From: Aquimarina spinulae
GTDB lineage: Bacteria > Bacteroidota > Bacteroidia > Flavobacteriales > Flavobacteriaceae
DNA: 64,000 bases
Direction: 5' to 3'
Assembly (NCBI RefSeq): GCF_943373825.1
Contig: NZ_CALSBP010000002.1
Span: 372,001 to 436,000, forward strand
In this document: positions 26,068 through 47,629 of the stretch, piece by piece
How the letters are laid out: every line of letters begins with the position of its first letter
How positions within the stretch are numbered: position 1 is the first letter of the stretch
The notes under the pieces: model-generated
Databases searched by the model: none
What the model was told of the DNA's origin: nothing
Seen by the model: the letters and a program-made list of their open reading frames with translations, nothing else
Program-made: the position numbers and the translations under genes

Positions 26068-26099
26068 TTGCACTAACGCAATTCTCCCTGTTATATTTG
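26068..26099 (+). promoter_or_regulatory. Consensus Bacteroidetes promoter
   Basis: TTG at 26068-26070 and a perfect TAnnTTTG (TATATTTG, 26092-26099) are separated by 21 bp, a good fit to the Bacteroidetes -33/-7 promoter. The predicted start is near 26105, about 15 bp before the ATG at 26121. Confidence 0.65.
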
Positions 26100-26120
26100 A
26101 CTCAACAAAAAACAACCAAC

Positions 26121-26375
26121 ATGGAGTATTTAGAATATAACAGTAAACACCGGTTTATGTCCGATATCTTAAAAACGTTACACCTTACTATGGATACTTT
26201 TATATATAACCTGGCAAATCATAGCCCATATGAGATGCTACTCTATCGATGGATTAATAAACTGTATAGTAAAGGAACATCTATAGATGATGCTATACAA
26301 CTCATCTATAAAGCACGTAATATACTATTACTTACTCCCAAAAATAGTTGGTGTAGCCCCCCAATTTTATCATAA
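26121..26375 (+). CDS. Small conserved-looking protein of unknown function (84 aa)
   Basis: The ATG at 26121 is chosen because the promoter's -7 box (26092-26099) overlaps an in-frame TTG at 26097, which therefore cannot be the start. The protein (MEYLEYNSKHRFMSD...) is predicted to be helical and soluble. It has the segment HSPYEMLLYRWINKLYSKG and an amphipathic helix DDAIQLIYKARNILLL. I recognise no family. It is the first gene of a plus-strand run of small unknown genes and is the best-supported target of the TTCTAGAA boxes. The next reading frame starts 11 bp after its stop, so the two may be co-transcribed. Confidence 0.6.
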   Translation: MEYLEYNSKHRFMSDILKTLHLTMDTFIYNLANHSPYEMLLYRWINKLYSKGTSIDDAIQLIYKARNILLLTPKNSWCSPPILS

Positions 26376-26386
26376 ACCACCTACTT

Positions 26387-26629
26387 ATGTTTATGCATTA
26401 TGATCAACTATGTACTACACAAAAAGCTTTGGTACATCGTAAAATAGCAGTAAGAACAAAAGCTCCCCAAGAGACCATACTTAAAGTACTCACAGGTATT
26501 AACCCTGTATTAAAAATAATAGATAAGGATGTGCTTATGATGTACTATATGATGAGCAAAATAGAACAGAGAATACAAGAAGAATTACGAATATCGAATG
26601 AAGAATTACGAATTACGAATGAAGAATGA
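26387..26629 (+). CDS. Small hypothetical protein with repeat-derived C-terminus (80 aa)
   Basis: Two in-frame ATGs, at 26387 and 26393, are possible starts. The protein is basic in the middle (VHRKIAVRTKAPQE) and has a Met/Tyr-rich helix (DVLMMYYMMSKIEQR). The last residues EELRISNEELRITNEE are encoded by the 21-bp tandem repeat at 26579-26641, which carries on past the stop. The original C-terminus may therefore have been replaced by repeat sequence. It follows the 84-residue gene by 11 bp. I recognise no family; it could be a genuine partner of that gene or a degrading one. Confidence 0.45.
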   Translation: MFMHYDQLCTTQKALVHRKIAVRTKAPQETILKVLTGINPVLKIIDKDVLMMYYMMSKIEQRIQEELRISNEELRITNEE

Positions 26630-26641
26630 AGAATAACGAAT
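26579..26641 (+). repeat. Tandem repeat, three 21-bp units
   Basis: Three units (26579-26599, 26600-26620, 26621-26641) each begin GAAGAAT and end CGAAT. Because 21 bp is seven codons, the first units are read as EELRISN and EELRITN. The third has changed and contains the stop. Similar simple repeats are widespread in bacterial intergenic DNA. Confidence 0.75.
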
Positions 26642-27183
26642 ACTGAATAATGTCACACTGAGCCCTTCGATAAACTCAGGACAGGCCTGTCGAAGTGGAT
26701 TGAAATGTGAAAGGAGTCAGAAGTTAGGAGTCAGAAGTTAGAAATACCAAAAAAAATTATAGTCTATAGTAACAAAAAAAGGAAAAAGGTAGGAGTAATT
26801 TGTATAGCTAAGCATAGTTGAGTTTGTGTAAACACCCATTTTTCAATTGCTCCTACTTCCTTTTTTTAAAATGTAAAACCGCAAAATGACAAATGAAAAA
26901 TATAATGGTAAAGACGCTGTAACTATCATTCCAGACTTGTTCTGGAATCCATAATACAGAGAAGCATTTTTGTGTATGGATTCCGGCCTACGCCGGAATG
27001 ACAAAGCGTAATGTTAGAGTGATAATAGCAACACACTCACAACTAATCAATGTAAAACCGAAAAATGAAAAATGTAGAAGTAAAGAGATGCCGTGACTGT
27101 CATTCCAGACCTGTTCTGGAATCCATGAGATAAGAAGAGTCAACAAACTCATATACTCACAACTAAATACTAAAAATAAAACA
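26642..27183. other. Gene-free stretch built of repeats (542 bp)
   Basis: No gene is supported. There is a half copy of the cctgtcgaag repeat (about 26651-26700) and a tandem 14-bp repeat GGAGTCAGAAGTTA (26713-26740). An imperfect inverted repeat joins 26772-26800 to 26844-26870 and ends in a T-run, so it may act as a terminator. A duplicated block starts ATGTAAAACCG at about 26871 and at 27050. Each copy includes a CATTCCAGA...TCTGGAATCC hairpin; the first also has the ATTCCGGC/GCCGGAAT hairpin (26980-26999). CTCACAACTAA follows each copy, the second one just before the next gene. Confidence 0.65.
26928..26999. repeat. REP-like double hairpin
   Basis: ATTCCAGA/TCTGGAAT (26928-26935 and 26941-26948) and ATTCCGGC/GCCGGAAT (26980-26987 and 26992-26999) form two hairpins. 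GGAATCCAT and ATGGATTCC pair the halves with each other. Related elements lie at 31153-31255 and 22097-22140, and a half copy at about 27098-27125. Confidence 0.7.
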
Positions 27184-27663
27184 ATGAGAAACATCATTCA
27201 AGATTTATTGACACAAGAAGAAAGAGATCAGGCAGGACAATTAGTCGAACAGCTAGAAGCTATGTTTACTAATAAACTAGCAGCCCTAACCGAAAAAGAA
27301 CGAGGGAGCTACAAGGCCATTAATGAGACCAATAAACTATTTGTAAATAAGGTTTGGGATTATCGTCAAAACAGTAGTACGCTTAGTTCTCCCGATGTAG
27401 ACTGGGAAGAGTTTGAAAAAGATTATAAAGCTCGTGTATTTGCAGAAAATCTATTGGGTCGTTTAGAAAGCCTGGCTTATCGATTAGAAAGTACCAAAAT
27501 CCTGCATGATTATGATAATTACCAGGATGCACTTAATGATTATGCGTATTCACAATATAGTAAAGGAGCAGGAAAACCGGGGTTTACCGAAAAAGTAGCA
27601 GAACTGAAGCAGTTTTTTAATCGTACCAGAAGTATCCCAAAGTCGGATAATACAGAAGAATAG
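27184..27663 (+). CDS. Conserved hypothetical helical protein (159 aa)
   Basis: The ATG at 27184 follows an A-rich leader (AAAAATAAAACA). The protein is soluble, highly charged and probably all-helical, with segments LLTQEERDQAGQLVEQLEAM, ALTEKERGSYKAINETNKL and VDWEEFEKDYKARVF, and a C-terminal AELKQFF block. No signal peptide, membrane segment or catalytic motif is seen. I have an impression of similar short unannotated proteins in other Bacteroidetes, which I cannot verify here. Its composition and codon use look like those of a real gene. The 21-bp dyad array begins only 6 bp after its stop and ends just before the next gene. Confidence 0.7.
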   Translation: MRNIIQDLLTQEERDQAGQLVEQLEAMFTNKLAALTEKERGSYKAINETNKLFVNKVWDYRQNSSTLSSPDVDWEEFEKDYKARVFAENLLGRLESLAYRLESTKILHDYDNYQDALNDYAYSQYSKGAGKPGFTEKVAELKQFFNRTRSIPKSDNTEE

Positions 27664-27668
27664 GTGAA

Positions 27669-27983
27669 AAAGACCTTCTTATGGGTCAAAAAGACGTTCC
27701 ATTAGACACCGGTGTCTCAAATTTAGGGATTGGGGTCCCAAAATTGGGTGTCGTACCTCTAATTTTAGAGAACAGAGGCTCAAATTTAGACATTAGTCAC
27801 TCAACGTTGAGCCTCTAAAGCCTAAATTTTCATTAAAAAGGTCCAACAGAAGGTCAAAAAGACCAAACCACTGATGAGCAGCATACAAATTTTAAGTAGA
27901 AGGATTCAAATTTGAACCCGGGAGGTCGAAAATCCTACAGTAACCACCAAATTTTGACCTCAGGGCATTAAACATTGCAAAAA
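27669..27983. repeat. Array of about fifteen degenerate 21-bp dyad units (iteron-like)
   Basis: Starting at 27669, cutting the DNA every 21 bp aligns a common core near CYYAAATTTRRG. The core is clear in units starting 27711, 27732, 27753, 27774, 27795, 27816, 27879, 27900 and 27942, and weaker in the rest. Core centres fall at 27721, 27742, 27763, 27784, 27805, 27826, 27889, 27910 and 27952, exact multiples of 21. Many units are palindromic: CCCAA-AA-TTGGG, CTCTAA-TT-TTAGAG, CTCAACGTTGAG (perfect) and TTCAAATTTGAA (perfect). AGACACCGGTGTCT (27704-27717) is a 14-bp palindrome at a unit junction. AGAGGCTCAA (27774-27783) pairs with TTGAGCCTCT (27807-27816). Two helical turns per unit suggests cooperative protein binding on one DNA face. 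Confidence 0.75.
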
Positions 27984-28007
27984 AACAAAATAAAGGGAAA
28001 ACACATT

Positions 28008-28289
28008 ATGAACATCATTATCAAACAGATTGAGCTTATAGAGCGGGTTGATCAACTTATTCGACTGCAAGCTACAGGATCACCAGATGATCTTGCCTAT
28101 CGATTAGGAATCTCTAAAACCAAATTGTACCGTATTATTAATACTATGAAATCCTTGGGTGCCCCTATAGAATATGATATTGCCATACAGAGTTTTGTCT
28201 ATGCAGAAGCTGTAGGGTTTACATTCGGGTTTTACCCAAGACAGCAAAAATATAGAAGAAAACTAGATCCTTTTGTAGGAGAGTTTTAG
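28008..28289 (+). CDS. Small winged-helix / HTH_11-like DNA-binding protein (93 aa)
   Basis: The ATG at 28008 is preceded by TAAAGGGA, a better ribosome site than is usual here, so it is preferred to the in-frame TTG at 27975. Residues 8-66 look like the helix-turn-helix plus wing of HTH_11 (WYL- or BirA-type) regulators. DDLAYRLGISKTKLYRIINT is the recognition region (residues 27-46) and GAPIEYDIAIQSFVY the wing. The tail GFTFGFYPRQQKYRRK is unusual, aromatic then basic, and there is no ligand domain. The array of 21-bp dyads ends 24 bp upstream of its start, so this protein is the obvious candidate to bind it. That is inference. Confidence 0.7.
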   Translation: MNIIIKQIELIERVDQLIRLQATGSPDDLAYRLGISKTKLYRIINTMKSLGAPIEYDIAIQSFVYAEAVGFTFGFYPRQQKYRRKLDPFVGEF

Positions 28290-46525: not shown

Positions 46526-47629
46526 ATGAAAAATGTAAAACTTTTTATAGCACTGTGCATTGGTGTTATTCCTATCTTATACTCCAGCAATGATAGTATC
46601 CTGCTAGAAACCACCAATCAAGTAGTTTTATCCTATTGCCTTGCAAAAGAAGATCCTACTAGAATTTTTGCCGTAGACTCAAAAACAGCAGAACTAAGCA
46701 AAGAAGGAAAAATAACAGTACATCTAAACAATGCTATAGAAACTATTAAAGGCAATATCATATTTACTGATGCTAATTTAAAAAAAGCATTGTTGACGCA
46801 TACCCCAATAATAGATACTAATAGTGATGGAGAAATCTCTGAAAATGAAGCTAAAAATGTAAAAGAACTTTTTCTAAATCGTAAAAACATCTACGATCTC
46901 TCAGAAATCAAATATTTTACAGCGTTGACCAAGTTAGAATGTAACAATAATCAACTCACTACTTTGGATATAAGTAAAAATACAGCCTTAGATCGACTGT
47001 CTTGTATTCAAAATCAACTTACTACTCTGGATGTAAGCAAAAATACGAAATTAAGATCCCTGAATTGTATTCAAAATCAACTTACTACTCTGGATATAAG
47101 TAAAAATACAGCGTTGAAATGGTTGATTTGTGGTTATAATCAACTCACTGCTCTAGACACAAGTAAAAATACAAAATTGACTCATTTGGCTTGTAATTAT
47201 AATCAAATCACTACTCTGGATATAAGCAAAAATATGTTGCTAAAATGGCTGGTCTGTAGTTATAATCAACTTAGTACTCTAGATACAAGTAAAAATACAG
47301 AATTAGAATTTCTAAATTGCCCAAATAATCAACTCACTACTCTGGATACGAGTAAAAATAGAGCCTTAGAATTCCTAAATTGTCAAAATAATGAACTCAA
47401 TACTCTCGATATATGCAAAAATATAGTGCTTACCAGATTAGAATGTGATAATAATCAACTCCATTTTCTAAACATGAAAAACGGGAACAATGTTGCTTTT
47501 ACCGAGGTAAGTCTAAAAAACAATCCCTCTCTTACTTGTATAACTGTAGATAATCCTACTGGATCATATGTAAACAAATGGCAAAAAGATGCTACTACAA
47601 GCTATACTAACGATTGTAGCACGCCATAA
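46526..47629 (+). CDS. Secreted leucine-rich-repeat protein with EF-hand-like motif
   Basis: 367 residues. A signal peptide (about 1-21) and a linker lead to DTNSDGEISENEA (near residue 96), an EF-hand or dockerin-like calcium loop. About nine 21-residue leucine-rich repeats follow, of the form NNQLTTLDISKNTxLxxLxC. The regular Cys at the end of each repeat is typical of this Bacteroidetes LRR group. The protein ends CSTP with no T9SS sorting domain, which relatives often carry, so it may be shortened or exported by another route. The 298 bp upstream (46228-46525) contains GGGTG-TTTT-CACCC (46464-46477) but no clear promoter. Confidence 0.82.
   Translation: MKNVKLFIALCIGVIPILYSSNDSILLETTNQVVLSYCLAKEDPTRIFAVDSKTAELSKEGKITVHLNNAIETIKGNIIFTDANLKKALLTHTPIIDTNSDGEISENEAKNVKELFLNRKNIYDLSEIKYFTALTKLECNNNQLTTLDISKNTALDRLSCIQNQLTTLDVSKNTKLRSLNCIQNQLTTLDISKNTALKWLICGYNQLTALDTSKNTKLTHLACNYNQITTLDISKNMLLKWLVCSYNQLSTLDTSKNTELEFLNCPNNQLTTLDTSKNRALEFLNCQNNELNTLDICKNIVLTRLECDNNQLHFLNMKNGNNVAFTEVSLKNNPSLTCITVDNPTGSYVNKWQKDATTSYTNDCSTP

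Follow-up and report, generated by a model that had tools for sequence, protein, structure and literature searches.

A 21-bp ladder array that accompanies the U159 gene family of Bacteroidota suggests an undescribed DNA-reading protein travelling with its own docking strip

Plasmid iteron arrays are spaced at about two helical turns and are loaded cooperatively by Rep proteins. Three other plasmid systems appear to be the nearest analogues of the locus described here. The F plasmid combines the DNA-binding protein SopB with sopC (parS_F), a tandem array of a 43-bp repeat that holds inverted-repeat sites, as an excerpt of PMC6238139 describes it. On plasmid R388, according to a portion of PMC3098194, StbA stabilizes DNA via direct repeats beside its own gene (stbDRs) and does not need the co-encoded ATPase; the repeats measure 9 bp, are spaced by two bases and lie around a plasmid operon promoter. 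The parS sites of pSM19035, in the part of the account given by an extract of PMC9499535, are contiguous, gap-free 7-bp repeats of mixed orientation, several of which are jointly needed for full activity, and they are read by omega, a ribbon-helix-helix protein.

The locus analyzed here consists of a gene for a 159-residue protein, termed U159, and an array of 21-bp units. Array and symmetry are present, and U159 is a candidate for the part that the binding protein has in ParABS and SopC-type systems; the sopC repeat length (excerpt of PMC6238139) equals the 43-bp spacing of some U159 arrays. In contrast to SopB/sopC, U159 has no convincing ParB-like match, and no ParA-type family matching at least two of the 79 nearest neighbor ORFs of the named loci was found among the 25 of 89 matching families listed, a lone case still being possible. 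Furthermore, the U159 arrays are chromosomal, they include orphans, and their unit letters are free to change. While the stbDRs surround a promoter, U159 arrays are built of 21-bp dyads and usually lie behind a single chromosomal gene. Unlike parS of pSM19035 they have no 7-bp period, and U159 gave no Foldseek match to a known fold at E ≤ 0.001. Iteron systems differ in that Pfam, NCBIfam and related searches gave no Rep family match for U159 and plasmid searches gave no hit at E ≤ 0.001. REP/RAYT systems use a Y1 HUH transposase encoded next to short palindromes, whereas Pfam, NCBIfam and PHROGs yielded no transposase match for U159. With regard to type III toxin-antitoxin systems, which pair an RNA repeat array with a toxin, one sub-threshold match of the TenpIN profile to a U159 relative was seen (L207; 13.9 bits, cut-off 90), and the window protein itself matches no ToxN/TenpN/CptN toxin family. 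CRISPR arrays consist of near-identical repeats and spacers, whereas the U159 units abut and spacers are absent. SopB/sopC, StbA/stbDRs and pSM19035 parS are treated as analogues, and we place U159 in none of these families.

The window, i.e. the whole stretch of 64,000 nucleotides of Aquimarina spinulae DNA that was analyzed, contains fifteen dyad-like 21-bp units at positions 27664–27978, assigned to neither strand. The first base of the array directly follows the stop codon of the U159 gene, which lies on the forward strand at 27184–27663. The first-pass annotation had proposed about fifteen such units and had suggested comparing the identity at lag 21 with shuffled sequence. The number of units held, and the register 27664–27978 fits better than the cut at 27669 that had been used. 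The autocorrelation revealed a clear excess: over 27664–27985 the mean identity at lags 21–105 was 0.417 (z = 12), and none of 2000 dinucleotide-preserving shuffles reached this value. Among segments of 315 bp the array gave the top 21-bp signal in the whole 64 kb (0.424 against a mean of 0.295, sd 0.020). Individual units matched their leave-one-out consensus at 6–15 of 21 positions (shuffled mean 6.3), with at least 10 positions matched in 12 of the fifteen, and adjoining units are only about 44% identical. Tandem Repeats Finder did not report the array. The 21-bp array in the window is real and lies far above chance.

The array had initially been ascribed to a 93-aa winged-helix protein as binder, with the 159-aa protein as a possible helper only. 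The 93-aa gene (28008–28289, forward strand) is located 3′ of the array; the short distance claimed between them is there, at 29 bp rather than 24 bp in the register 27664–27978. This proximity and weak HTH-domain matches of the 93-aa protein speak for it as the array binder. Its family in this genome is small and dispersed, with 13 matches including the window copy, two of them carrying an internal stop. We inspected 800 bp in front of the window copy and of 11 others, leaving out one partial match. Only one of these 11 (L021) has an array directly before the gene and ten have none, so that 2 of 12 examined copies are preceded by an array. Many U159 arrays have no 93-aa-type gene in the flanking sequence examined. 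The idea that the 93-aa protein binds the array is not borne out by these data and is very improbable. The array belongs to U159, and the 93-aa gene is not part of the module. The 159-aa protein, which had been considered as a helper only, is the array's constant neighbor, and its residue 146 changes together with the half-site (see below).

U159 represents an unclassified, all-helical family. Relatives were found in 39 of 66 Aquimarina genomes, in 8 of 249 sampled genomes of the bacterial family and in 26 of 392 sampled Bacteroidota genomes, the own genome being counted each time. In the own genome U159 has four matches: besides the copy in the window there are two close copies and a fourth that is 30% identical. 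Behind each of the four, the sequence has 21 as its best period. Named loci were taken from the best 80 of 151 matches; among these the closest relatives (99%) occur in Aquimarina sp. AU58, A. megaterium and A. atlantica, and other members in Chryseobacterium, Kaistella, Pedobacter, Flavobacterium, Capnocytophaga, Riemerella and Tannerella. Pfam, NCBIfam, PHROGs and PADLOC gave no convincing match. In Pfam at E ≤ 0.01 each family matched at most 3 of 48 U159 members (best 2e-4, a single member), a PDB sequence search returned nothing below E 0.2, and Foldseek against PDB and viral models found no match at E ≤ 0.001. Likewise, ParB, ribbon-helix-helix or winged-helix domains were not convincingly matched in Pfam, NCBIfam or PDB sequences, and phage, plasmid and viral-contig collections contained no U159 hit (plasmids at E ≤ 0.001). 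AlphaFold models of the window protein (pLDDT 89) and of one class B protein (pLDDT 88) agree on four to five predicted helices, one of 55 residues (74–128), and on a disordered C-terminal tail. The protein is acidic, with a pI of 5.0 (family median 5.3, range 4.6–9.1), which counts against DNA binding by the protein body, not by the basic tail. Beside U159 there is no second recurrent neighbor gene that would be an obvious array reader. Relatives of two small ORFs of the window, 26097–26375 and 26387–26629, recur near U159, mostly upstream, at 23 and 15 clustered U159 loci, respectively, nearly all of them in Aquimarina.

Linkage of the array to U159 was computed across the family and is evident. 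Significant downstream periodicity (z > 4) was observed at 61 of 85 non-redundant loci, with a best lag of 21 bp in 42, 42 bp in 10, 43 bp in 5, 22 bp in 3 and 14 bp in one. Thus 60 of the 85 carry a downstream array at lags 21/22/42/43, and persistence of the array in relatives of the 159-aa gene is supported. Upstream of U159, 14 of 85 loci were significant, four of them at lag 21 (L107, L109, L179, L180); these four have no significant downstream array. The Tannerella locus (L171) has its array upstream of U159. Counting either side, 64 loci have an array at one of these lags and 21 have one on neither side. In a control restricted to named loci, 42 of 54 regions immediately downstream had one of the lags 21/22/42/43, as had one of 52 immediately upstream and 0–2 of 50–54 in each of six further 600-bp windows at distances of up to 2.8 kb. 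From one lineage to the next the unit letters are entirely different. Examples are TAATTGTCTAATTAAATATCA (L091), TTGAACCAGTTC (L110), GGAAGGTACCCGGGTAGGTTC (L112), GACTnnAGTC (L111), CTTCGAAG (Aquimarina class B) and CCAAATTTGG-like units (window class). Three loci (L162, L120, L206) show a spacing of about 43 bp, which in L162 consists of alternating 21 and 22 bp, and the array of L091 is a near-perfect tandem repeat. Greater U159 divergence goes along with lower array similarity, the pairs not being independent. We found no published account of such arrays in the open-access literature, which does not by itself show that they are absent from print.

The spacing is kept while the letters change. 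An alignment of 13 class A arrays over 252 columns (about units 2–13) contains a single indel, of exactly 21 bp, in four rows, although the letters vary widely; the other gaps fall in the last unit. The class B set of fourteen arrays, of which five adjoin U159 and nine are orphan, aligns without gaps for about 220 columns; one copy has an extra base near the end. The indel control is mixed. In the comparison L208–L210 the downstream flank of the orphan was also indel-free (182 columns), while L214 against L224 gave no indels in the array and 31 in the flank. The recurrence of one spacing with unrelated letters throughout the phylum is a stronger argument than indel counts. The mean autocorrelation of 38 arrays, picked for their 21-bp identity, has no peak at 7 or 10–11. 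Two class A arrays (L133, L134) carry one inverted unit, CGTCTTTTTG in place of CAAAAAGACG, with the 21-bp register intact.

Dyad symmetry is a property of many arrays at the level of the consensus unit. It exceeded that of column-shuffled units in 15 of 38 arrays (p < 0.05; Fisher 5e-13) and was not individually significant in the other 23. In ten related arrays 47.5% of the cells were Watson–Crick pairs at the best center, with a median over centers of 24.9%, and at this consensus level the dyad core described by the first-pass annotation stands. So does the proposed likeness in kind to iteron or operator arrays with dyads two helical turns apart. What did not hold is the claim of compensating arms within units: over 38 non-redundant arrays 1506 pairings were observed against 1489 expected from unit shuffling (Stouffer z 0.73), and G–T mismatches (298) were not in excess of A–C mismatches (315). 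With h denoting the distance from the dyad center, half-site letters of 16 Aquimarina-type arrays co-vary between arrays (h4 z 3.1, h5 z 3.2) and not within them (z 0.0 and 0.2). Positions h3 and h6 show a weak pairing excess in both comparisons (within arrays z 1.8 and 2.1), and nine positions taken together give a Stouffer z of 3.4 in the pooled comparison and of 0.8 inside arrays. Drift of half-site letters between but not within arrays is the trace expected of a symmetric reader with a drifting preference. Hairpin arms would predict compensation within arrays, and none was seen.

We then asked which part of U159 goes along with the half-site. Nearly all Aquimarina-type rows have a basic tail after Phe145 of the form FF-[N/A/S/P]-R-[T/S]-[K/R]. 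The analysis used 29 loci of the Aquimarina type in which an array could be detected; L155, one of them, carries the label of an Acidobacteria MAG. Residue 146, the first of the basic tail past Phe145 and encoded in the window by AAT (Asn) at 27619–27621 on the forward strand, was the best protein column for C or T at h5 (adjusted R2 0.84; next best 0.47 for 153; 29 loci). By eye the two half-sites read about GGT-CY-AAA and GGT-TA-AAA. One locus with a cut gene (L154) was left out of the match. Over the other 28, Asn146 went with C-type arrays in 13 of 13 loci (weakest L045, 0.48 C) and Ala, Ser or Pro146 with T-type arrays in 15 of 15 (at most 0.31 C). Because only a short distance separates the tail codons from the array, we ran a linkage test. 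Bases 1 and 2 of codon 146 sorted 28 of 28 arrays by half-site, whereas variable columns of codons 144, 145, 147 and 148 sorted 0.54–0.64 (baseline 0.54) and the best other column in codons 105–153 sorted 0.82. A codon that sorts perfectly between neighboring sites that do not is more than physical linkage alone would give. Five genomes with both types (G000, G009, G017, G024, G059) keep the match of residue and half-site at each locus.

The link was seen after the fact, as h4 had been tested first (p = 0.43) and h5 then separated the classes, in a register set by a score that favors AAA/TTT at the center. A register-free count of CCAAA/TTTGG versus TTAAA/TTTAA gave p = 2e-5 with overlapping classes. 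On a tree of residues 1–144 the class changed eight times, with only two independent pairs on well supported branches, and the rule loosens beyond the Aquimarina type. Within one genus, residue 146 and the array half-site vary together, through few independent changes. Some U159 genes are chimeric (L040/L138 and L065 relative to the window, L067 relative to L042): they are near-identical up to about residue 144 and then have a different tail and a different array class. Their sequences point to recombination between paralogous loci.

Arrays also occur apart from U159. The own genome has class B arrays at C1:614 kb and C2:2285 kb, neither with U159 beside it, and at 9 of 14 class B places examined in Aquimarina no class B U159 lies closer than about 1.5 kb. 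Two orphan sets (L208/L209/L210 and L214/L224/L225) have flanks in common between species, and consequently these sites look old. A class B U159 gene is present in all seven Aquimarina genomes with class B orphans, although it is common throughout the genus in any case. In another bacterial family one genome (G470) carries an orphan array of its local unit type about 1.48 Mb from the U159 gene on the same contig, with no U159 in the flanks examined; in a further genome (G282) we found no orphan array. To function, orphan arrays would depend on a trans-acting factor.

On balance, U159 is probably a new DNA-reading protein that binds the array in register, in a centromere- or operator-like fashion; we infer both the binding and the role. 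Together, U159 and its array would form a self-contained DNA module of Bacteroidota, and the small, helical U159 proteins would be a new family of DNA readers. The protein may act in dimeric or oligomeric form, with each 21-bp dyad occupied by one dimer. All units would lie on one face of the helix, so that neighboring dimers are aligned, and cooperative loading could build a regular nucleoprotein filament on the strip by its own gene and on the chromosomal orphan strips. The basic C-terminal tail past Phe145 may contact the half-site, residue 146 helping to pick C or T. For the role, our preferred guess is a mark that is either centromere-like, with a single protein, or organizes the chromosome by positioning, pairing or insulating. 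We favor this over control of one gene because many sites stand in a row and in mixed orientation, and because of the orphans and the apparently insulated paralogues. The acidity of U159, the lack of a recognizable DNA-binding fold and the tail that is disordered in the models weigh against the reading.

Several explanations would do without a DNA-reading protein. The first-pass annotation had named a decayed heptad-repeat gene as the alternative, 21 bp being seven codons, and open frames do run across some arrays (L041, L042; six loci; class B ORFs of 79–119 aa), in a frame not common to the family. The best lag is 22 or 43 in 8 of 61 loci, and as neither is a multiple of 3 a coding repeat is excluded. 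Moreover, most units of L091 contain two stops in the frame shown, and in the 14 copies of class B the variation is spread evenly across the three codon phases (0.162, 0.145, 0.169) and the synonymous fraction is 0.23–0.31 in all six frames, none being in excess. The heptad-repeat reading is already refuted by phase, and we give it practically no weight. An array that works as structural nucleic acid, its transcripts folding into hairpins or its DNA extruding them, could draw on the folding energies, which in 38 arrays average z = -3.8 in sense and -3.7 in antisense and reach -14.7 in the lowest array. Low energies of this kind would be expected of any near-palindrome that is repeated. Several arrays fold at z near or above 0, Rfam has no match in the array, and the missing compensation within units, with no surplus of G–T over A–C, makes this reading improbable. 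That a neutral minisatellite sits behind U159 by chance would suit the turnover of units and near-perfect arrays such as L091, but one gene family with one spacing and unrelated unit sequences throughout the phylum leaves this a very slim chance.

Two further readings deserve more weight. Another conserved protein might read the array, with U159 as a linked passenger or a gene controlled by the array that never touches DNA. An acidic protein with no known DNA-binding fold would fit such a part, and with no obvious recurrent reader in the neighborhood the true one could be encoded anywhere. Linkage alone does not lead one to expect that codon 146 sorts the arrays perfectly and the surrounding sites do not, and the seven Aquimarina genomes with class B orphans all hold class B U159, common as it is in the genus. 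We regard this as unlikely, yet as the strongest of the competing readings. Slightly less likely is a transposable unit in which U159 moves or copies arrays and the orphans are non-autonomous copies. REP elements are the non-autonomous counterpart to RAYT transposases, and orphan arrays at unrelated places, also in a second lineage, exchange visible in the chimeric loci and REP-like palindromes near U159 agree with this notion. The absence of a transposase match in Pfam, NCBIfam and PHROGs and of hits in phage, plasmid and viral-contig collections argues against it, as do the orphan sites that share flanks between species and hence look old.

For U159 as the array reader, a bolder version can be formulated, which we put forward tentatively and with more doubt than confidence. 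U159 may found a new class of chromosome-borne, centromere-like modules in Bacteroidota, in which a helical protein that is neither ParB nor HTH polymerizes on strips of two-turn dyads, both next to its gene and at orphan sites, one tail residue resets the specificity, and several mutually insulated copies, of the N146 and A146 types, coexist in a genome. If true, this would parallel in bacteria the centromere DNA that changes fast while its function is conserved. An unclassified, phylum-wide protein family is linked to a DNA target that the genome itself shows next to most of the family's genes, and the many natural pairs of protein and site could open a route to a new recognition code. It would also provide an easy way to test, in bacteria, what a row of cooperative sites on the chromosome does. 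One fixed spacing can outlast the full replacement of its letters.

Other repeats were noticed in the window. REP-like palindromes crowd the region in front of U159 at 26643–26700, 26930–27002 and 27101–27125. By eye they fall into the types CCCTTCGATAAACTCAGGACAGG and TCATTCCAG/CTGGAATCC, and a palindrome of the TCATTCCAG/CTGGAATCC type lies between the U159 gene and the array at a related locus (L041). At 26582–26650 about ten copies of a 7-bp repeat (GAATWAC-like) extend over the end of an 80-aa ORF. An array of repeats whose unit measures 63 bp (3 × 21) is located at 46947–47423 and appears leucine-rich-repeat-like by eye.
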